A stretch of 47,092 bases of DNA from Acidobacteriota bacterium (GTDB taxonomy: Bacteria; Acidobacteriota; Thermoanaerobaculia; Thermoanaerobaculales; Sulfomarinibacteraceae): contig WGCW01000077.1 of the NCBI GenBank assembly GCA_015493585.1, forward strand, positions 1 to 47,092. Direction: 5' to 3'. Positions 2,009-41,846 of this stretch are shown one piece after another. How positions within the stretch are numbered: the stretch's first letter is position 1; every line of letters starts with the position of its first letter. A program made the position numbers and the translations under genes. A model generated the notes under the pieces. The model was not told where the DNA came from, did no database searches, and worked only from the letters and a program-made list of their open reading frames with translations.

Positions 2009-4162
2009 CTACTGACCACCTGCGGGTGTCAACGTTCCGTCCTTGAGCTCGAAGGTGACATTGTGGAAGAGGGTATCGAGCGCCTCTGGATCGTCGTAAT
2101 AGGATGTGTTGACGACGTCGTCCGGCGCCAGCCGCAACGTGGCCGTCCAGGCGTCCGGGGCGGCGGTGACGAAGAGATATCCGTGAGAGGACGTGTCCGT
2201 CGCCACGATGTCGGCTGGGGTCACGTGCTGATGATCCTGAGCTGAGAGTTGCAGAATCGGATCGAGGTGGGCCACGAGCTGATCAAGCCCCGGCATGTTT
2301 GCCAGTTGCGGCAGCGATTCGGCCTTGGTACGAACCATGTCCTGGAGGCTTTCCGATGAAATGGCAGGGCCGGTGAACTCGTAGACCCCCTGGTGATCGA
2401 CGACGAACGACCCGTGGATGTCCCCGCCGATAACGACCGGGTTCGGAATCTGGCGCAGCATGCCAAGGATGACCGCCCTCATATCGGGGAAGCCGTCCCA
2501 CTGATCGGCGTTGATCAGGAGCCGCTGCCGGAAGACGTCGGGAAAGTCGGGCGGCAACATGGCGGCAATCGCCGGGTTGGTGAAGTCGAGCACCATCGGT
2601 GCCATCGAAACCGAGCTGACGAGGACGTTCCAGGTCGCGGGGGGCTGGGAGAGGGTTTGTTGCAGCCAGGCCATCTGCTGGGAACCGAACGCATTCTCGG
2701 CAGCTCCGTTCGTTGCCGTGAACCGTGAGCCTGCATAGAGGCGGAACGGGTCGTTCATCAACAGGTAACGGGATCCCGTCGAGCTGTAGAGGTTCTGTTT
2801 CCCGAGGAAGAGGTAGGAGATCCCCCGCGGCAACGTTGCGGCAATCTGAGGTGTGAACGGAGCCGGCAGCCCGGCCGCTTCAAAGAGCAAATTGAGATAG
2901 GTCGTGCTGACGTTGCCGTGCAACGCCTCCTGAGCTTTGCCGAGCGCCGCTGCCTGGTCGAGGGCCGGGTTTTCCATGGCGTACGCCTGCGACAGGATCA
3001 GCGTGGCCGTCTGACGAAAGATGTTGAGCCCGGCAGACGCCAACAGATCGATGTTGATGTACGGATCCAACGAGGCCGCGATCCCGTTGTACCCATTCTG
3101 GCCGAGCATCTGCTGGATGGTCGCCGCGTCGACGGCGATGGCGCCGGGGAATGCGTTCTCGGGCACGAGGTGATCGGGCCGGAACGTCCTGTAATCGGTC
3201 AAAATGAGGTGGAGATTCTCCCCGTACCTGTAGTCCCTGTAGTCGCCGGAGTCTGGATACAGATTATTTGCATTGATGTCGAGGGTGCCATCGGGGCCGA
3301 GGCCAACTTCTGTCGGCACATACTCCATCCACGCCTGTTCCGCGTGCCGGCGGCGTTCCGGCTCGTACTCATCGGTACGGCCGTCGAAGTAGGTCGCGTG
3401 CGCTCCCCAGCAGTCATCGGAGAATTCGTGGTCGTCCCAGATGACGACCTCGGGATAGGTTGCGCGGACCTGCTGGAAGACGGGATCGCTGAGGTACGTC
3501 TTGTAGAGCGTCCTGTAATTGGCCAGACTGGACGCCGCGTAGTCTGGTGCGTCGGCCGTTCCGAGCTGGATCGCGCCGGCAGTGTCGGTAAAGACCATTT
3601 TCCGGCCGGTGTTCGTCTTCTGAAAGGTCGGATCTCCCGTTGTTTCGTAGACGTAATCGCCGATGTAGAGCAGGAAATCGACGTTGTCGGGATGCTGGCG
3701 GAGGAGATCGAGGTAGGCGTTGTAATACCGCCCGATGTAATCCTCGCCGTAGGCAACCGCAAAGTGCACGGCACGATCGGAATCCGCCGCCGGTGCGGTG
3801 CGTGTCCGGCCGACCGGTGAGAGATGGACGGTTGCTCCGTCGTCGTAGGAAAACTGGAAGTAGTAGGTCGTGTCGGGATCCAACCCTTCGATCCGGACCT
3901 TGACGCAGTGGTCATAGGCCGTCTTGGCGGTCACGTCCCGCGTGGCAACGGTTTGTGTCATGTCTGCATCGGTCGCGACCGCCACCGAGAGCGGCAGATC
4001 GGCATCCGGCTGTGCCACGTCGACGACCCGAGTCCACAGCACGATGCTATCAGGATGAGGATCGCCCGAAGCCACGGACTGCGGGAAGAACGACGCCGCG
4101 GTACAGGCCGAAGCGGCGAGCAAGACCGCCACGGTTACTCCAAAAAATGCACGCATCTTCAT
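2009..4162 (-). CDS. phoD: PhoD-family alkaline phosphatase/phosphodiesterase
   Basis: The start is the ATG at 4162 (MKMRAFFG), preceded by GGGAGGT; the longer upstream frame runs through a dispersed repeat. The 717-residue product has a Sec-type signal peptide ending LLAASAC, where Cys20 could be a lipidation site, although the -3 residue is Ala. PhoD hallmarks are visible: GDPHPDSIVLWTR, an N-terminal Fn3-like region, YIGDYVYE, VIWDDHEFSDD and the C-terminal metal ligand motif GGDIHGS. The family hydrolyses phosphomono- and diesters with Fe/Ca at the cell surface or periplasm. Typical PhoD proteins carry a twin-arginine signal; none is seen here, which is a mild oddity. At 717 aa it is longer than the usual 500-580, with extra sequence between the DDHE and GDIH motifs. 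Confidence 0.9.
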   Translation of the reverse strand: MKMRAFFGVTVAVLLAASACTAASFFPQSVASGDPHPDSIVLWTRVVDVAQPDADLPLSVAVATDADMTQTVATRDVTAKTAYDHCVKVRIEGLDPDTTYYFQFSYDDGATVHLSPVGRTRTAPAADSDRAVHFAVAYGEDYIGRYYNAYLDLLRQHPDNVDFLLYIGDYVYETTGDPTFQKTNTGRKMVFTDTAGAIQLGTADAPDYAASSLANYRTLYKTYLSDPVFQQVRATYPEVVIWDDHEFSDDCWGAHATYFDGRTDEYEPERRRHAEQAWMEYVPTEVGLGPDGTLDINANNLYPDSGDYRDYRYGENLHLILTDYRTFRPDHLVPENAFPGAIAVDAATIQQMLGQNGYNGIAASLDPYINIDLLASAGLNIFRQTATLILSQAYAMENPALDQAAALGKAQEALHGNVSTTYLNLLFEAAGLPAPFTPQIAATLPRGISYLFLGKQNLYSSTGSRYLLMNDPFRLYAGSRFTATNGAAENAFGSQQMAWLQQTLSQPPATWNVLVSSVSMAPMVLDFTNPAIAAMLPPDFPDVFRQRLLINADQWDGFPDMRAVILGMLRQIPNPVVIGGDIHGSFVVDHQGVYEFTGPAISSESLQDMVRTKAESLPQLANMPGLDQLVAHLDPILQLSAQDHQHVTPADIVATDTSSHGYLFVTAAPDAWTATLRLAPDDVVNTSYYDDPEALDTLFHNVTFELKDGTLTPAGGQ

Positions 4163-33892: not shown

Positions 33893-34192
33893 TCAGTAGT
33901 GGTATCGTGCCTGGAGGAAATCGATCCGTCCCTCTCGCACCAGGTAGACAATTCTGTGCTCTTCCGTCAGGCGCCTCGACCACGTCCCGGCGAGCAGGTA
34001 CTTGAGCGGCTCGGGTTTGCCGATACCTGAAAACGGATCGCGCAGCACAGCCTTGACGATATCCAGCGCCCGAAGCGCCACCTTCCGGTTGGTTGCAACC
34101 CAGTATTTCAGGTCTTCCACGAACTCTGGCTGGAAGACAGCGGCACGCCGCCCCTCGCCGGTAGCGATCGCTCTACCTTTCTTCTTCGCCAA
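33893..34192 (-). CDS. YoeB/Txe-type toxin
   Basis: No ATG or GTG suits the family start. TTG 34192 follows GGGAG by seven bases and overlaps the antitoxin by 20 bases, giving 99 residues (YoeB has about 84). The family core is clear: VFQPEFVEDLKYWV, GKPEPLKYLLAGTWSRRLTE, EHRIVYLV and the terminal ARYHY, so the Glu/Arg of TEEHR and the His/Tyr of the C-terminus expected in the ribosome-dependent RNase site are present. It should cleave mRNA in the ribosomal A site when free of antitoxin. The rare start may keep toxin output low. Confidence 0.88.
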   Translation of the reverse strand: MAKKKGRAIATGEGRRAAVFQPEFVEDLKYWVATNRKVALRALDIVKAVLRDPFSGIGKPEPLKYLLAGTWSRRLTEEHRIVYLVREGRIDFLQARYHY

Positions 34193-34463
34193 GACCCAGC
34201 TCCCGCCGCAGCTTGGCGACATCCGAAGGTGGGAGCTCCTGATCGCGTGCACGTTGCAGCGCCCTCAGCAGGCGCTCCACGTTTTTCGGCGAACGCAAGA
34301 GGTGAGCCGTCTCCAGCAGGCTCTCGAGCTCCTCGACGGACACGAGCGCCACGTCCGCCTTGTTCCGGCGCTTGATGATTACCGGTTCTCTCGAGGAGAC
34401 GGCCTCGTCGCAGAGCGTTGCAAGCTGTGCCCGCGCATTCGTGTAGGTTGTCATCGTCGCCAT
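34173..34463 (-). CDS. Phd/YefM-type antitoxin
   Basis: ATG 34463 follows TTGGAGGATGCATCG. The 96-residue protein has a typical YefM N-terminus (TTYTNARAQLATLCDEAVSS, EPVIIKRRNKADVALVSVEE), which forms the DNA-binding dimer, and a charged C-terminal arm (residues 55-96) expected to wrap the toxin. It is longer than many YefM proteins because of that arm. It is first in the operon and its stop lies inside the toxin gene. Confidence 0.88.
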   Translation of the reverse strand: MATMTTYTNARAQLATLCDEAVSSREPVIIKRRNKADVALVSVEELESLLETAHLLRSPKNVERLLRALQRARDQELPPSDVAKLRRELGLGEEER

Positions 34464-34480
34464 CGATGCATCCTCCAATA

Positions 34481-34499
34481 TGTACAGTATTACTGTACA
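34481..34499. promoter_or_regulatory. Toxin-antitoxin operator palindrome
   Basis: TGTACAGTA-T-TACTGTACA is a perfect 9-bp inverted repeat with a single central base. Each half carries TGTACA, the core of the known YefM-YoeB operator. The two cores are 13 bases apart centre to centre, and the palindrome covers the -10 of the operon promoter. Confidence 0.85.
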
Positions 34500-34520
34500 G
34501 CTTAGCACACCGCGCGTCAA
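34492..34520 (-). promoter_or_regulatory. Promoter of the toxin-antitoxin operon
   Basis: TTGACG (34520-34515) and TACAGT (34497-34492) are separated by exactly 17 bases on the minus strand. The -10 lies within the operator palindrome, and the antitoxin ribosome site starts about 15 bases downstream. Confidence 0.65.
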
Positions 34521-34534
34521 GCCCAGCCAGCCTC

Positions 34535-34704
34535 TCAGTCAAACAGCCAGGTCACCTTGACGAAGCCGATGGTCTGCCGCTCGGAGGAGAACGGCGTCCA
34601 CGTCAGGTCCCGGTCGAGATCCCTCGAGTGGGTCAGGCCGACGTAGATTCTGGTAAACGCGTTCTTGCGCCAGGTGAAGAGCAGGTTGATGTAATCGTAG
34701 GGGT
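34535..34704 (-). pseudogene. Duplicated 3' end of the DUF5916 barrel gene
   Basis: These 170 bases match 37795-37964 at 167 positions with no gaps. They encode the last 55 or so residues of the DUF5916 protein (ending GFVKVTWLFD and stop), but nothing precedes them in frame: identity ends at 34704, seven bases before the stop codon of the exporter gene. It cannot be expressed on its own. It lies between the toxin-antitoxin promoter and the exporter. Confidence 0.9.
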
Positions 34705-34711
34705 GCTTGTC

Positions 34712-36436
34712 TCATGCTAGCGCCCGAGCTTCCCCAGATTCTCGGTCACCATCGTGCTCGCCTTGACTGCCGTTGCCGGCCGGTACGTCGAGCTCGACCA
34801 CGAGATCCATTCCGGGCAGCGTCTCGCGGCGGTGGGTCATCCAGATCATGATGGGCCGCCAGGGAAGCGCTCCCAGGTTGCGCATGAGCTTCTGCTGCGT
34901 GACGGCGTCCAACGCCGAGGTCGCCTCGTCGAAAATGATAAGGTCGGGTTTCCCGTACAGGGCACGCGCGATGGCGATCCGCTGCTTTTCGCCGCCGGAG
35001 AGCATGGCACCGAGCTCCTGAATCGGCGTTTGCAAGTGCTTTGGGAAACGGCCGACGGTTTCTTCCAGAATCGTGATATGCATCAGTTGCCGTATCCACT
35101 CGAAACCGGGGTCGGAGTCGAAGAACGTGATATTGTCGAGGATTGTTCCAGAGAGGAGTGGAGGTTCCTGGGGTACAAACCCGGTCCGCATCCTGATCGA
35201 GCTCAGGTCGAAGCTCGTGTAGTCCACACCGTTGATCCGAATGCTGCCCGAGGTTGGCACGTCGAAACCCAAAAGCAGCCGTGCAAGCGTTGTTTTCCCA
35301 GCGCCCGTCTCACCGGTGACCGCGATCCGGTCACCACGCACGCAACGGAACGAAACTGGGAGCAGCTCGCCCCTCTCACCATACGCGAAGGCCACGTCCT
35401 CGACGTCCAACGTCCGGATTTCGTCGAGTCCGGCAACACCGAATCGCCCGGCCTCGGCCGGATGATCGATCACCTCGAAGATCCGCTCAGCCGCGGCGAG
35501 CGCTGAATGAATATCGATGTTCGTGCTAACGACGTCCCGCACCGGGTTGTAGAGGTACCCGATGCAGGTGTTGAAGGCGATGAAGCCGCCGAGCGTGAAC
35601 TGGCCGAGGATGATCTGCCGAATCCCATACCAGAGCACGAAGAGCGGCAGCAGAACGCCGGTTAGCCCGATGGCGATGCTGGCGACCACGTCGTACAGCT
35701 CGAGTTTCCTGTCCGACGCAAGGGCCGAGCGAAGCGAACCGCCGTAGCGGACGTGGGCGATCGCCTCCCTGGCAAACCCCTTCAAGGTCCCCGCGACGCC
35801 GAGCAGCTCGACAAGCACGCCGCGAAACGTGGCCCACGCCTCTTGGCGTTCGCGGCTGTACTCGTTCATTCGCTTTGAGAACACATGAAATGTGATGATG
35901 AAGAGTGGCAGCGACAGGATCGACACGATGGCGAGCTGAACGTTAAGGTAAAAGAGCAGGCCCACACCAACCATAAACGTCAGCCCGTCCATGCCGAGAT
36001 TGAGTACCGTTTCCACGAAGAGATGGCCCGCAGCATCGACGTCGTTGTCCGCCCGCGACTCCAGATAGCCGCGTTGGTGCTCCTCGAAGAAGCGCAGCGG
36101 CGCGGCCATGATCGAGCGGAAGAGCGACGTCCGGATGTCGCGCTCGACGTTGATCCGGTAATCGACCAGCAGCTTCCGGTACAGGTAGGAGCTCGCGTTA
36201 TTCAGCAGGACGATTCCAACCAGGGCGAGCGCAAGCAGGTTCAGCAGGCGAAGGTCCCCCTTTGGGACGATGACGTCGATCAGGTACTTCGTCAACAACG
36301 GCGCGGGGAGCTGGAGGATGGCCGAGAAGAGCATCAGGAGCCCGGCCGCAAGCCCGCGTGGCCAGTACGGCGCGAGAAATTGCAGGAACCTCCGGTAGGT
36401 CCTCCACGCGTGCCTGTAGTACCCCGTTCCCGTCAC
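34712..36436 (-). CDS. ABC exporter of the putative RiPP locus
   Basis: GTG 36436 overlaps the maturase stop in GTGA. The 574-residue half-transporter has six N-terminal membrane helices (about residues 25-310), then an ATPase with Walker A GETGAGKT (375-382), signature LSGGEKQR (479-486), Walker B LIIFDEATSALD (Asp503, Glu504) and H-loop His535. The first residues lead straight into helix 1, so there is no C39 leader peptidase domain; leader removal, if any, must come from another protease. It probably exports the modified peptides. The C-terminus (after 550) is a charged tail without homology that I recognise. Confidence 0.88.
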   Translation of the reverse strand: MTGTGYYRHAWRTYRRFLQFLAPYWPRGLAAGLLMLFSAILQLPAPLLTKYLIDVIVPKGDLRLLNLLALALVGIVLLNNASSYLYRKLLVDYRINVERDIRTSLFRSIMAAPLRFFEEHQRGYLESRADNDVDAAGHLFVETVLNLGMDGLTFMVGVGLLFYLNVQLAIVSILSLPLFIITFHVFSKRMNEYSRERQEAWATFRGVLVELLGVAGTLKGFAREAIAHVRYGGSLRSALASDRKLELYDVVASIAIGLTGVLLPLFVLWYGIRQIILGQFTLGGFIAFNTCIGYLYNPVRDVVSTNIDIHSALAAAERIFEVIDHPAEAGRFGVAGLDEIRTLDVEDVAFAYGERGELLPVSFRCVRGDRIAVTGETGAGKTTLARLLLGFDVPTSGSIRINGVDYTSFDLSSIRMRTGFVPQEPPLLSGTILDNITFFDSDPGFEWIRQLMHITILEETVGRFPKHLQTPIQELGAMLSGGEKQRIAIARALYGKPDLIIFDEATSALDAVTQQKLMRNLGALPWRPIMIWMTHRRETLPGMDLVVELDVPAGNGSQGEHDGDRESGEARALA

Positions 36437-37782
36437 GCGCTTTCCTTCTCAGCGTCTTCAACCTTCTGCGAGCCGCCGCTTCCCTCGTTGAGCTTGTACG
36501 TGTAATACAGCTCGAGCTGCCGGCCGAGGTAGTACTTCCACCGCGCGCAGTCCTTCTCCGGCATCTGGCCGAGCTTGGCCTTGATCCGGACATCGACGCA
36601 GCCACCCATGCAAATTGGCAGGTACCGGCACTCGAGGCACTCGGGATCGTTCTCGAAGCTCTCGGAGAGGTAGCGAATATAGAGCGGGCCAAAATCGATC
36701 GGCTCGGCCACGTTGCCCACAACCTGGTCAGGATTCCCGAGATGGTTCCAGCACTTGTAGAGCTCTCCCCCAGGGCCAACGACGTAGGCGCTCGTCGAGG
36801 TCGCACCGCAACCCGAGGAAATGTCGGGGTAGGCCGGCTCGACAACCCCCAGCCCGACGAGCTGCTCCTGGAGCTCATACTCCCGGTCCCAGAAATCTCC
36901 CTGCAGTAAACACTCCTCCTCGGAGCAACGACAGGAAGCGGAGAACTTGCGCACATAGCCGAAATACACGCTGAAAATTCCCGGGTCGAACCACGGATAC
37001 GACGAAAGCTGTTCGTAAAAGTGCCGCGCGTCCTCGACGTTCTCTCGGTCGACGTTGACGCGCAGCGCCACGGGCAGGATGCCCGCCGACTCCTCGAGTC
37101 GAGAAACGATGGTGTCGAAGCTCCCGGCGCCGCTGCGGTACGGCCGCCTCTGATTGTGCACCTCGCGTGGGCCGTCGAGCGTCACTTGGGCACTGGTTAC
37201 CTGCAAAGCCTTCAGCTTTTCCGCCACCGTCCGGCTGAGCAGCGTCCCGTTGGTGACGATGTCGGCCGTGTAACCGATCTTCTTGTCCTCGCACAGCGCG
37301 ATGAGCTTCGAGCTCAGCCGTTCGATGACCTCCAGGCACAGAAGCGGCTCGCCGCCGTACCAGGTCACGGAGACGCCGCGCATGCCGGCGTCGATTGCCT
37401 GGCGTGCGAAATCAACGACCTTGTCCTGAATCTCCTCGCTCATGACGCCCTTGGTCGGATTTTCAAAACAGTACTTGCACGCGAGATTGCAGTTGATCGT
37501 CGGGGCGATGGTGAGGCCGAGCCAGTTGCCGCCGTACTGCTGCACATGGCGGCGGATTCTGAGCACGGCGAGCTCGTCAAGTTCGTCGGGAATCACGAAG
37601 CCGCCCCGCTCGAGCTCGGCCAGCGTCTCGGAGTCCACCCGCGGCTCGCCGCCGGGTTCGAGGTTTTCCACCGCCGCCCTGATTTCCGCATCGACCACGG
37701 CGAGGCCGTTGCGCAGGGCGTTGTAGGCCAGGATCGAGCCGTCCTCCCCTTCAAAAAAGAAGTTATAGCGCGATGGTTTCAT
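36433..37782 (-). CDS. Radical SAM/SPASM peptide maturase
   Basis: ATG 37782 follows GGGAGGAATCA, 12 bases after the barrel gene's stop. The 449-residue enzyme has an N-terminal 85-residue region (YNFFFEGEDGSILAYNALRN; ELERGGFVIPDELDEL) typical of RiPP maturases and possibly a leader-binding fold. The radical SAM cluster motif is Cys98-x3-Cys102-x2-Cys105 (INCNLACKYCF), with GGE at 143-145. A SPASM-type C-terminus provides Cys325, 344, 382, 385, 391, 395 and 412 for auxiliary clusters, with three more Cys at 284, 286 and 291. Such enzymes install thioether or C-C links on ribosomal peptides. Two Cys peptides upstream are likely substrates. Confidence 0.9.
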   Translation of the reverse strand: MKPSRYNFFFEGEDGSILAYNALRNGLAVVDAEIRAAVENLEPGGEPRVDSETLAELERGGFVIPDELDELAVLRIRRHVQQYGGNWLGLTIAPTINCNLACKYCFENPTKGVMSEEIQDKVVDFARQAIDAGMRGVSVTWYGGEPLLCLEVIERLSSKLIALCEDKKIGYTADIVTNGTLLSRTVAEKLKALQVTSAQVTLDGPREVHNQRRPYRSGAGSFDTIVSRLEESAGILPVALRVNVDRENVEDARHFYEQLSSYPWFDPGIFSVYFGYVRKFSASCRCSEEECLLQGDFWDREYELQEQLVGLGVVEPAYPDISSGCGATSTSAYVVGPGGELYKCWNHLGNPDQVVGNVAEPIDFGPLYIRYLSESFENDPECLECRYLPICMGGCVDVRIKAKLGQMPEKDCARWKYYLGRQLELYYTYKLNEGSGGSQKVEDAEKESA

Positions 37783-37794
37783 TGATTCCTCCCT

Positions 37795-37964
37795 TCAGTC
37801 AAACAGCCAGGTCACCTTGACGAAGCCGATGGTCTGCCGCTCGGAGGAAAACGGCGTCCACGTCAGGTCCCGGTCGAGATCCCTCGAGTGCGTCAGGCCG
37901 ACGTAGATTCTGGTAAACGCGTTCCTGCGCCAGGTGAAGAGCAGGTTGATGTAATCGTAGGGGT
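37795..37964. repeat. Parent copy of the 170-base duplication
   Basis: The 3' end of the DUF5916 gene, repeated in direct orientation at 34535-34704 with three substitutions and no indel. The two copies bracket the maturase and exporter genes (about 3.1 kb). Confidence 0.92.
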
Positions 37965-40056
37965 TGTCGTAGCCGTAGTCGTAGAGCGACGCGCGGTCAT
38001 GGATGAAGAAGATCTTGAAGTTCGTGTGATCGTTGAAGACGTAGCGGACGACAGCTTCGTAGGAGCGCTGGGCGCGGTCGAGGGCGCCTGTATCCCGCTC
38101 CCGGAAGGTAAAGTCCGACGCGTTGAGCCGGATGGAGAACGGTCCCCAGCTCGAGTTCGCTCCCCAGGATACGGTCTTCTGGTCGACGACCCGGGGCGCC
38201 GAGCCGTAGAGGATCGAGTGACCGGTCGAGTAACTCACATACGGCTGAAACTTCGGGTGCTCCGACCACCCCACAGTCGCGTTGAGGGTATGGGTCGGAT
38301 AGATCACGCCGTCGAATTCCTCGTGGTCCTTTTGGTAGTACGCATTGACATTGAACTGATGCTCGAGCGTGACGCCGGCAAACGCGTAGGGAACCTGGTT
38401 GATCAGCACCGACCGGTAGTTGTAACGAAGTTGATAACCCACCTGGGCGGTGAAGCCCTTGACCAGCGGCTTGGACGTTTTGGGCTGGTACTCGAAGTTT
38501 TGGGAGACCTGGTAGCTCCGGAAGTCAACGCGCTCGAGGAATCCCGCATCGGTGCGGAAGTCCGGCGACAGCGCTTCGTACGACAGATACGTTTCGAAGT
38601 ACTGGCTCCACTTGTAGTCGAGGTCGAGCGATGCGCCGTTGCCGGTCTTGGTATCACCATGCGCCCGGGTCTGGGAGACGACGCCCTGGTAGGTGACGGT
38701 GAGCTTCTTCACGCGCTGCACGCCATCAATTGAGACGACGCGGTTGAAGCCGGAGCCGAAGTCCCGCTCGGTGACCATGGCGCCAATGAACGAGCCCTTC
38801 GGCTTCGTGTCCCACGTCGCCCGGAGGATGTGCCACCACGTGGTCCGCGCCCGCCCTTCCAGGCCGAAGCGCTCCGGCGGCACGTCCTGCTCGTTGGCCG
38901 AAATGCCGTACAGCCCGAGGCGCTTGCCCTTGGTCGAAAACTTCAGGCCCAGCTCCGGCTGGACGATGTTGCGGGTGTCGAGGAGATCGATCGGCGTCTT
39001 GAACGACTCCATGCCGTCCATGAAGAAGGGCCTTTTTTCGGGGAAAAACACCGGGTAACGGTTGTTGATCCGCTGGTAGGTGTCGTCGGCCTCGACCTCG
39101 GAGAAATCGGGATGGATCGTTGCCTTGACGCTGGTGTTGGAGGACGGAATCCACTCGCCGGTGATGCCGAACGTGCCCTGGGTCGAGCCCGTGGAGACCG
39201 CCGGATCGCTGCCCTCGCGATCCTTCGTGTCGATCCGTGAGACCACCCAGCTCGGAATCACCCGCCAGTGCTTCTGCGCGTGCGGCGGAGGCAGGTGCGT
39301 CAGAAGGATGCGGGCGTCGCCGTCCAACGGGTTGTTCGAGTTCCTGTTGAGGGGAAGCATCGAGTCCGCCTCGAAGAACTTCCGGGGAATAAACCGGGTG
39401 ATCGAAAAGAGCCACGTCCCGGCCCCATCCTGCGCGGCGTAGTTGATGCTGGCAAACGGAATCCGGATCTCGACCGTCCACCCTTTGGTATCGATGGTGC
39501 TGCCATGATCGAAAATCAGGTCGAAATCGCTGTTGAAATCGCCGCTCGCGAGGTCGACGGTGCCGTCGGTGACGTCGTTCATGGGCGAGACAGCAACCAT
39601 ATATTCCTGTTTGCCCGTACCGAAAGAATCAAGGTAAATCTCGACATGCTCGTCCAACCCTTGATCCCGGCGGTAGCGCGTCCGCCGGATCTGCTCCGGA
39701 TGCGGATCGAAGCAGCGCACGCCGACGATCAGCGCATCCTTGGTCGTGAACAGGTACAGCACCGTCCTGCGTGACGGCGGCGTGTTATCACCCGGGTCGG
39801 TTTGCACGAATCTATCCCAGCGGAACGCCTTCGCGTACTGCGGATCATCAAGCCTGCCGTCGATCTTCACCGGCCCCGGCAGGTAGGGGATATTCCAGGT
39901 CGGTAGCTTCCCGGCAGCCCGGCTGCCCGTTGGGACAAAGACGGCCGTGACGATGAGGAGCACCATGGTCAGACGGTCCGCCGCCGGGGAGTGGCCGCAG
40001 TGCCAAGAATGTCGCGGCGACCGGCCCGAAATCTGTCTCATCCACATCTCATCCAC
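37795..40056 (-). CDS. CBM9-like/DUF5916 outer-membrane barrel protein
   Basis: The frame opens at GTG 40056; ATG 40041 or ATG 39966 (MVLLIVTAVFVPTGSRAAG) are alternatives and none has a clear ribosome site. A signal peptide precedes a CBM9-like domain of about 200 residues (PGPVKIDGRLDDPQYAKAF; LYLFTTKDALIVGVRCFDP). The remaining 480 residues are DUF5916, alternating strands with aromatic girdle residues (KRPFFMDGMESF, YETYLSYEALSPDFR) ending VKVTWLFD, consistent with an outer-membrane beta-barrel. It lies between the two peptide genes and the maturase, so it may serve as outer-membrane exit or receptor for the product. That role is inference. Confidence 0.8.
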   Translation of the reverse strand: MDEMWMRQISGRSPRHSWHCGHSPAADRLTMVLLIVTAVFVPTGSRAAGKLPTWNIPYLPGPVKIDGRLDDPQYAKAFRWDRFVQTDPGDNTPPSRRTVLYLFTTKDALIVGVRCFDPHPEQIRRTRYRRDQGLDEHVEIYLDSFGTGKQEYMVAVSPMNDVTDGTVDLASGDFNSDFDLIFDHGSTIDTKGWTVEIRIPFASINYAAQDGAGTWLFSITRFIPRKFFEADSMLPLNRNSNNPLDGDARILLTHLPPPHAQKHWRVIPSWVVSRIDTKDREGSDPAVSTGSTQGTFGITGEWIPSSNTSVKATIHPDFSEVEADDTYQRINNRYPVFFPEKRPFFMDGMESFKTPIDLLDTRNIVQPELGLKFSTKGKRLGLYGISANEQDVPPERFGLEGRARTTWWHILRATWDTKPKGSFIGAMVTERDFGSGFNRVVSIDGVQRVKKLTVTYQGVVSQTRAHGDTKTGNGASLDLDYKWSQYFETYLSYEALSPDFRTDAGFLERVDFRSYQVSQNFEYQPKTSKPLVKGFTAQVGYQLRYNYRSVLINQVPYAFAGVTLEHQFNVNAYYQKDHEEFDGVIYPTHTLNATVGWSEHPKFQPYVSYSTGHSILYGSAPRVVDQKTVSWGANSSWGPFSIRLNASDFTFRERDTGALDRAQRSYEAVVRYVFNDHTNFKIFFIHDRASLYDYGYDNPYDYINLLFTWRRNAFTRIYVGLTHSRDLDRDLTWTPFSSERQTIGFVKVTWLFD

Positions 40057-40152: not shown

Positions 40153-40341
40153 TCATCGCGGTGATCCGCCAGAGGGAGCCGGCGTTGGGGTTGGCGTTGG
40201 AGTCGGCCCTTTCGTCGGCGTCTTCTTCTTCGGTCTCACCAACGTTGCGCCCGCGTCACACGTGCATAAGTTTGAGCAATGAGACGTCGTGAGAGTCCGG
40301 CCTTCGAGCAGCGAGACAAGCGGATCTTTCAGCCATAACAT
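40153..40341 (-). CDS. Putative RiPP precursor peptide B, 62 aa
   Basis: ATG 40341 follows GGAGGTGATTC, among the strongest ribosome sites in the window. The peptide starts MLWLKDPLVSLLEG, has a Cys core HCSNLCTC (Cys22, 26, 28), then GATL (31-34), a basic run RPKKK, and a tail PTPTPTPTPAP ending SGGSPR. It shares residues at identical positions with peptide A: Trp3, Leu4, Asp6, Pro7, Leu11, Gly14, Gly31, Thr33, Leu34, Lys39, Lys40, Pro46 and the Pro-Thr tail. No signal peptide is present. It lies 96 bases before the barrel gene. Identity as precursor rests on context and paralogy, not on a known family. Confidence 0.75.
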   Translation of the reverse strand: MLWLKDPLVSLLEGRTLTTSHCSNLCTCDAGATLVRPKKKTPTKGPTPTPTPTPAPSGGSPR

Positions 40342-40582
40342 GAATCACCTCCAGTACGAAATCTCTCAGGCGCGCGTCGCCCTTACGGGGGCCCGACCCC
40401 GCAGCCAGGTACATTCCTCGGGGGTTCATGGCCGACCGTAAGACGTCAATTTCACCCCCTTCGACGCACGGCGTCTCGTCGCAGCGCGCACCTCCATTCC
40501 TGAGACCGAGCGTGTCCAATAAACAGCTCAGCTCACCGGGCACGCGCTTGAGAGGCTTCCGTGACCACCCTGTCGCCCCGAT

Positions 40583-40765
40583 TTATTTCTTGGGCGCCGG
40601 TGTGGGCGACGGAGTGGGGGTCGGCGTTGGGCGCTTGTGTTTGCCCTTCTTGTTTTTCAGAGTCAGCGTGTGCCCCTGCCCAACGCACTGACACTGCTTC
40701 TTCACGATCATACATGAATCGCCCCCGGCAGCCAGGTCCGAAACAGGATCACATAACCACTGCAT
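40583..40765 (-). CDS. Putative RiPP precursor peptide A, 60 aa
   Basis: The frame extends upstream to 40798, but ATG 40765 is chosen: AGAAGAGGTTGCC precedes it and the leader then aligns with peptide B. The peptide reads MQWLCDPVSDLAAGGD, a Cys core with Cys18, Cys25 and Cys27 (CQC), GHTLTL, a long basic stretch (KNKKGKHKR), and a tail PTPTPTPSPTPAPKK. A fourth Cys (Cys5) lies in the leader. Both peptides share a CxC pair at almost the same position and the same module order, so they are paralogues. It is the first gene of the putative operon, 241 bases before peptide B. Confidence 0.75.
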   Translation of the reverse strand: MQWLCDPVSDLAAGGDSCMIVKKQCQCVGQGHTLTLKNKKGKHKRPTPTPTPSPTPAPKK

Positions 40766-40916: not shown

Positions 40917-40984
40917 GTTGGCTCCCTTCACGTTTAAGGATTTATCTGGCCAGACGTTTATATTATGCAGCAGACCTTAGCTCG

Positions 40985-41103
40985 TGACAGGGGGTCAAAA
41001 TGTCTGATCATTGGCCGGACGGCGAGCTGCCGAAAAGCTGTGAATCCATTGGACATTCTCACACATTGCACGGAGGCGGGGGGGGTAATTTTGTCTGATC
41101 AGC
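40985..41103. mobile_element. Decayed insertion-sequence end (two 21-base repeats)
   Basis: GGGGGT-CAAAAT-GTCTGATCA (40990-41010) and GGGGGT-AATTTT-GTCTGATCA (41081-41101) are direct repeats with 17 of 21 bases equal, 91 bases apart. Short G-run plus TGTC repeats at an element end, followed inward by an AT-rich promoter-like stretch (TAATATAA) and a small ORF, is the layout of an IS left end. No right end or full transposase is visible. Confidence 0.5.
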
Positions 41104-41752
41104 GGAACGCGGAGGGTGACACGCCGAAGATCTCGTGAAAGACCCGCCGGAAGTAATGCACGTCCGAGAAACCAACGAGGCGTGCCGCTTCAGCCACGGT
41201 GCATCCGGCCGAAGGATCGGCAAGCATGACGAGAGTCCGGCGCAACCGCTCGGCCAGGATCATCTGGTGCGGCGTGGCGCCTCCCTCCTCGTGAAGCTTC
41301 GTGGTGAGGTGCGCCCGGCTCAGGCCGGCCTCCCGGGCGAGCCCGGAAACGGTCAGCTCCCGCAACTGGTCGAGGGGCAACGTGCGGAGCAGCGCCCGAA
41401 CGCTCGTCGCCAAGGGCTCGGGCCCGGCCGGCTCCCCCGCGCGGCAGATGGTCTCGGCAAGCAGGTTCCGCACTTCGTCTACCGGCTCACCGGCGCCACC
41501 TTGCGCGGCGCACTGTGTCTGGAGCGCACCGTACACCTCGAGGATCCTGCTCACCCCATGACCGGAGGTGATCGCAATCGCATACCGGGCCACGCCCAGC
41601 AAGAAGGGAGCCACCTCCCCATCGGCACGATGGCTGCACACGGTGGCGGCAACGTCCAGCGCACGCTCCCATGCGCGACCCTCCCTCGCCCCCCCGCACG
41701 TGCAGAGGTACTCCGCGAGCAAGGCCTCAATTTGATTCTCCGTGATCATCAT
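41099..41752 (-). CDS. AraC-family transcription regulator
   Basis: The start is ATG 41752 (MMITENQI), or GTG 41773; neither has a strong ribosome site. The 217-residue protein has an uncharacterised helical N-terminal half and a C-terminal AraC domain with two helix-turn-helices: LTVSGLAREAGLSRAHLTTK and TVAEAARLVGFSDVHYFRRV, then FHEIFGVSPSAFR. The stop TGA comes immediately after that motif and is part of the insertion-sequence repeat (TGATCAGAC), so the natural tail may have been cut by a few residues. It reads toward the peptide locus on the same strand and might regulate it; this is unproven. Confidence 0.8.
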   Translation of the reverse strand: MMITENQIEALLAEYLCTCGGAREGRAWERALDVAATVCSHRADGEVAPFLLGVARYAIAITSGHGVSRILEVYGALQTQCAAQGGAGEPVDEVRNLLAETICRAGEPAGPEPLATSVRALLRTLPLDQLRELTVSGLAREAGLSRAHLTTKLHEEGGATPHQMILAERLRRTLVMLADPSAGCTVAEAARLVGFSDVHYFRRVFHEIFGVSPSAFR

Positions 41753-41846
41753 GACCCCCGGGCAGTGAGACACCGGCGAACAACGCGCTGCTTCAAAAAG
41801 AGTCTACCAAATCGAAAGCTTCGCGAAGAACCGCTGGCCGTGCGCG

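Follow-up and report, generated by a model that had tools for sequence, protein, structure and literature searches.

In the 47,092-nucleotide stretch of Acidobacteriota DNA analysed here (the window; the host genome assembly is 3.1 Mb), two small genes encode the paralogous cysteine-rich peptides A and B, which, judging from sequence comparison, are Clo7bot-like radical-SAM peptides lying outside every curated family tested and forming a rare and previously unnamed branch in the Acidobacteriota. Unusual here are the Trp-leader branch, a Pro-Thr (PT) tail in place of a fourth Cys, and a partner protein of the outer-membrane beta-barrel type. The genes follow one another on one strand in the order AraC regulator, peptide B, peptide A, DUF5916-like barrel, radical SAM/SPASM maturase and ABC exporter.

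Two Small Genes With a Common Layout

Peptide A (40153..40341, minus strand; 62 aa) and peptide B (40583..40765, minus strand; 60 aa) are each encoded by an open reading frame with its own ribosome site, GGAGGT in the case of A, and each matches the within-family profile (E 1.3e-13 for A and 6e-14 for B). Their sequences are MLWLKDPLVSLLEGRTLTTSHCSNLCTCDAGATLVRPKKKTPTKGPTPTPTPTPAPSGGSPR (A) and MQWLCDPVSDLAAGGDSCMIVKKQCQCVGQGHTLTLKNKKGKHKRPTPTPTPSPTPAPKK (B), and the start sites with the ribosome sites read tactGGAGGTgattcATG (A) and gagAAGAGGttgccaATG (B). Both peptides can be divided into a leader (residues 1-21 in A, 1-17 in B), a Cys core (22-28 and 18-27), a basic stretch (36-44 and 37-45) and a PT tail (46-62 and 46-60). 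The Cys core of A, C22-x3-C26-x-C28 (40258..40278, minus strand), has been delimited by precursor alignment, and that of B, C18-x6-C25-x-C27 (40685..40714, minus strand), by the alignment of 15 precursors described below. An earlier note, made from the letters of the window, had described a fixed layout shared by the two peptides, and all of its positions (W3-L4, D6-P7, L11, G14, G31, T33-L34, K39-K40 and P46) hold, as do the CxC pair at 26/28 in A and 25/27 in B, the order of leader, Cys core, basic stretch and PT tail, and the presence of a separate ribosome site before each start codon.

A and B are real small genes. They are about 30-43% identical, too far apart for dN/dS between them to be informative. 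With the PT tail removed, their global alignment scores 38, against an average of -23 (s.d. 10) for shuffled sequences, and none of 5000 shuffles reaches 38; the local score of 40, again with the tail removed, was reached by 10 of 5000 shuffles. The pattern x-x-[WFY][LIVM]-x-x-P at codons 1-7 is found at three of the 3349 possible starts in the window, two of these three being A and B, and the third codon position has the highest GC of the three in both genes (0.69), as it has in the neighbouring genes. The view that the likeness of A and B goes beyond chance is borne out by the shuffle test and the leader-pattern count, and its strongest confirmation comes from homologues in other genomes.

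The Maturase and Its Gene Neighborhood

The maturase (36433..37782, minus strand; 449 aa) has been recognized as a radical SAM/SPASM peptide maturase from Pfam, NCBIfam, alignment, tree and its closest solved structure, CteB (5wgg; E 2e-37). It contains the radical SAM core motif CxxxCxxC at residues 98-105 and a Cys-rich SPASM domain (TIGR04085, 51.8 bits against a 27-bit cut-off), with Cys at 325, 344, 382, 385, 391, 395 and 412 in the SPASM region. The models for particular maturase families all score under their cut-offs, namely Clo7bot (TIGR04334; 289.9 bits, cut-off 600), TIGR04463 (275.3 bits, cut-off 525), CefB (246.1 bits, cut-off 600), the geopeptide maturase (TIGR04280; 212.8 bits, cut-off 400) and SCIFF (91 bits, cut-off 425). 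As regards a possible leader-binding RRE domain at the N-terminus, the maturase profile extends to the N-terminus of 8vpo, and residues 9-83 appear as three short strands followed by helices in a weak AlphaFold model made from the maturase and one homologue (pLDDT 46), which gave no usable fold. The nearest named relative, which is 57% identical, lies on a contig of an Acidobacteria MAG (L001), and this is the ground for assigning the system to the Acidobacteriota. Maturases 51-57% identical to that of the window occur in L001, G023 and G103, where each adjoins Cys-rich peptides that share the leader. With maturase matches at E <= 1e-60 in two of the 148 genomes of the class, the system is rare and has a patchy distribution.

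The maturase starts 12 bp past the barrel stop, and its own stop is overlapped by the ABC exporter (34712..36436, minus strand), in which the membrane and ATPase domains are fused (Pfam) and a homologue of which also follows the maturase in L001, G023 and G103. No C39 peptidase domain was found in the exporter by Pfam, and no leader protease gene within the cluster. At the other end, the AraC-type regulator (41099..41773, minus strand; Pfam HTH_18 and HTH_AraC) is a possible candidate for control of the cluster, and a promoter-like site upstream of B (40962..40990, minus strand) is a weak consensus match, two such sites being present in the region against 0.4 expected in shuffles.

Between the peptides and the maturase lies the gene of the DUF5916-like outer-membrane beta-barrel protein (37795..40056, minus strand; 753 aa, with an apparent signal segment), for which the listed start is GTG and a start near 39966 is likelier. 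Its match to DUF5916 (PF19313) is sub-threshold (8.7e-5; 21.9 bits, under the gathering cut-off of 22.6); the barrel of the G103 cluster scores 35.9 bits, and the homology of the window barrel to other members is clear. In the barrel tree, the proteins of the window, G023 and G103 clusters, together with orthologues in G001 and G009, form one clade (100/100) apart from 25 paralogues, the G103 row being a long branch and DUF5916-like proteins being common in the family. The link between barrel and cluster survives rearrangement, because in G103 the barrel gene comes after the exporter and not ahead of the maturase. In the same-genus genome G001 (L134, G001:C177, 2638-2800) the barrel is kept (85-87% identical) and the maturase consists of its first few codons only, a stub that begins MKPSRYN and runs into unrelated sequence; this is decay of the system. 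G009 has the barrel without maturase or peptides, as far as two contigs show. Since these orthologues persist without an intact maturase, decay may lag behind or the barrel, which belongs to the system, may have an additional role. A polyubiquitin profile match of the barrel was dismissed as spurious, and AlphaFold of the barrel from its single sequence gave a pLDDT of 30 and no usable fold.

The Precursor Family in Other Genomes

In five other genomes or contigs, homologous peptides are encoded, singly or in tandem, next to a homologous maturase, and in one further genome next to an ABC exporter. This upholds the proposal that A and B, each made up of leader, Cys core and tail, are precursors of a RiPP associated with a SPASM enzyme. 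The number of precursors at the maturase loci is one in L001, four in G023 (all upstream of barrel and maturase), three on C254 and one on C131 of G103, two in G150 and six in G432, so that the partnership of a small precursor gene with a peptide-modifying enzyme, by which RiPP clusters are generally recognized, is conserved across genomes. The family features are a start-proximal W-[LIV]-x-x-P leader, a core C-x(3-10)-C-x-C, from which one peptide departs, and an extension at the C-terminus that several members have in a basic form; the placing of a tail after the Cys core, which the earlier note had singled out, is general in the branch. In the 15-precursor alignment (A, B and 13 from relatives, the G103 C131 peptide with its Trp leader and no CxC being left out), W3 and both Cys of the CxC are invariant, P7 and the first core Cys are nearly so, and a fourth Cys after the CxC is present in 13 of the 15, A and B being without it.

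A and B do have homologues elsewhere, and the refuting condition named in the earlier note, a complete lack of such peptides in other genomes, therefore fails. In a profile scan across 396 genomes of the phylum, such peptides occur only where the maturase clade occurs, apart from three weak matches; the profile was built from clade members, and the scan therefore shows the absence of orphan copies, not independent discovery. A weak match judged convincing is the peptide of G289 (MFWIHDPISYLLSISDSMCVVLTECTCVGDEKLVSNSKCKKKIIKVKKKKQSKNKKKGKK), with the leader MFWIHDP, a ribosome site and a strongly basic tail, which is encoded directly after the end of an ABC ATPase like the one in L001, the contig ending on the far side. 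No near-identical orthologue of A or B was found, the sole same-genus genome having the barrel and the maturase stub. In G432, the six tandem Trp-leader precursors lie downstream of their maturase (L064, G432:C93, 2530-4208), and several of them have a second CxC.

Leader Type and Relation to Known Systems

In the maturase tree, the window maturase belongs to a clade of seven (support 100/99), all of which adjoin Trp-leader peptides. A precursor was recognized for five sister maturases (L065, L066, L069, the Clo7bot plasmid L082 and the CefA locus L083), and in each of them the residue at this position is Phe or Tyr. The seven and the five, being related lineages, do not count as independent events, and the leader pattern itself had a part in finding the precursors outside the window. 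Aligned by hhalign, the Trp-type leaders are in register with the Clo7bot leaders over columns 1-11 (E 0.005). The match between leader residue and maturase clade fits a recognition of the leader by the enzyme, and because Trp is found throughout the one clade and Phe or Tyr in its sisters, A and B, as RiPP precursors, are assigned to a new branch with Trp leaders within the Clo7bot-like group.

The Clo7bot system (TIGR04333 peptides, TIGR04334 maturase CtpM) resembles that of A and B in its tandem small Cys-rich precursors and in a SPASM maturase followed by an ABC transporter, and its leader MKFIKKP, by direct reading as well as by hhalign, has the same aromatic residue at 3, Ile/Leu/Val at 4 and Pro at 7. 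In contrast to Clo7bot, A and B have Trp instead of Phe at 3, another Cys spacing, a basic or PT tail and the DUF5916-like barrel as a partner. Neither peptide matches TIGR04333 (31-bit cut-off), one relative from G150 scoring 11.4 bits. The TIGR04463/CefB maturase with its precursor CefA (Cys-every-fifth) falls in the same maturase group, and a CefA-annotated protein of Methylomagnum starts with MQYLVQP in the same register, but this protein has about 680 aa and many regularly spaced Cys, compared with 62 and 60 aa in A and B. This precursor, encoded on a Methylomagnum plasmid (L083, 2870-4909), has lectin-like repeats before its Cys repeats. The SCIFF/ranthipeptide system (CteA-CteB) likewise combines a SPASM maturase with a short Cys-rich precursor, whereas A and B have three core Cys in a CxC layout where SCIFF has six, and a long basic/PT tail after the core. 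A segment C-terminal to the core is shared with the bottromycin type, in which a follower is used instead of a leader (PMC10885120), whereas A and B have leader and tail both. An open-access search found no relevant literature on Clo7bot, TIGR04463, DUF5916 or OhkG.

Proposed Mechanism and Alternative Readings

We consider it probable that the system works as a whole in the following way, with A and B as paralogous RiPP precursors of one radical SAM/SPASM maturase, leader docking, Cys cross-links, ABC export and handling by the barrel. The leader, M-x-W-[LIV]-x-[DE]-P, would, given its conservation, dock on an RRE-like domain at the N-terminus of the maturase, and the enzyme, if it behaves as its family does, would cross-link the core Cys C-x(3-6)-C-x-C by radical chemistry, thioethers being the likeliest product. 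The gene order suggests that the ABC exporter would carry the modified peptide from the cytoplasm and that the co-oriented DUF5916-like barrel would carry the product across the outer membrane or bind it there. The basic stretch and the PT tail would form an extended, positively charged C-terminal segment, staying on the peptide or being trimmed late. Points against the scheme as a whole are that A and B have no fourth core Cys, that the cluster has no leader protease gene and that the PT tail is found in one genome.

In its substrate SCIFF, the enzyme CteB links a Cys to a Thr by a thioether (PMC8326336). Thr33 is common to A and B and stands five or six residues past the last Cys of the CxC. 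The SCIFF bond first described is reportedly Cys32-Thr37, and by likeness to it Thr33 may be named, purely as a prediction, as the thioether acceptor. A further-reaching proposal, according to which the precursor has three parts (leader, radically cross-linked CxC core and C-terminal basic/PT arm) and the arm works with the dedicated barrel as a handle for delivering an exported radical-SAM RiPP in a Gram-negative cell or tethering it to the surface, is speculative and, in our judgement, improbable.

Being short and, in searches of Pfam and NCBIfam with both peptides, matching no curated family, A and B might be taken for chance open frames next to a maturase that acts on something else; such an explanation can hardly be credited, given the ribosome sites and the shuffle tests, and above all because homologues of the same layout already exist in other genomes. 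A and B may instead be true substrates of the maturase in which the bond is other than a thioether (C-C, C-O or an epimerization) and the Cys bind metal or form disulfides. The CxC is a common metal-binding motif, and A and B have three core Cys each. The many bond types catalysed by SPASM enzymes (PMC8326336; PMC9062424) also speak for such an outcome, which we nevertheless regard as rather unlikely: Clo7bot and CefB, as the families nearest to the maturase, have Cys-rich substrates, CteB is its nearest relative of solved structure, and the conserved residues of the core are the first Cys and the CxC.

The PT tails of B (PTPTPTPSPTPAPKK, stop included; 40583..40630, minus strand) and A (PTPTPTPTPAPSGGSPR, stop included; 40153..40206, minus strand) have been read directly from their codons, and no relative found has one, the tails of the relatives being short, such as PPPK. 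In A and B the tail seems to replace the fourth core Cys. The tails may have no role and may have arisen on an otherwise ordinary precursor by neutral drift of low-complexity sequence, a less likely but tangible possibility, which is favored by the short tails of the relatives, by the occurrence of (PT)n inside a pilin-like protein of the same genome and by the restriction of the tail to this one genome. Against drift, Pro-Thr is kept in both paralogues in spite of synonymous variation among the codons, B using each of the four Thr codons once and CCA, CCG and CCC for Pro, and a basic stretch like that before the PT tract recurs in relatives, as a strongly basic C-terminal extension in the G289 peptide and the fourth G023 peptide. 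As the codons vary synonymously and tandem-repeat scores over the tails are weak, recent microsatellite slippage is not what produced the tails, the signal for DNA slippage being weak; the same two observations suggest that the PT amino acids are kept. For the basic stretch and the PT tail together, the likeliest role would be that of a spacer or an envelope-binding arm; a cleavage site in the basic stretch and an export handle in the tail, both suggested in the earlier note, are putative. A search of the same genome for PT-rich patterns turned up one other locus, and PT is therefore no genome-wide tag; this locus is that of the pilin-like protein, in which the (PT)n forms an internal linker (L089, G000:C62, about 3700-3830).

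The system delimits a branch of radical-SAM peptides in the Acidobacteriota that no curated family covers, and it comes with a testable pairing rule, one maturase clade going with Trp leaders and the sisters of this clade with Phe/Tyr leaders. A family of outer-membrane barrels is moreover connected with the export or uptake of RiPPs, and this connection, if real, would address how radical-SAM RiPPs pass the Gram-negative outer membrane. The pair of A and B with one maturase represents a small, expressible test system for the role of a C-terminal tail after a modified core.

Repeats and Flanking Genes

A 170-nt direct repeat (98%) of the barrel 3' end is present at 34535-34704 and 37795-37964, ending exactly at the barrel stop, and its two copies flank the maturase-exporter pair; it could reflect recombinational insertion of this pair or mediate its loss. 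Directly downstream of the cluster, at 33893-34520, lies a toxin-antitoxin pair of the YefM/YoeB type. A 148-nt stretch from the region of the G001 maturase stub (L134, 2496-2643) is 83% identical to positions 1069-1214 of the window and is possibly a dispersed repeat.
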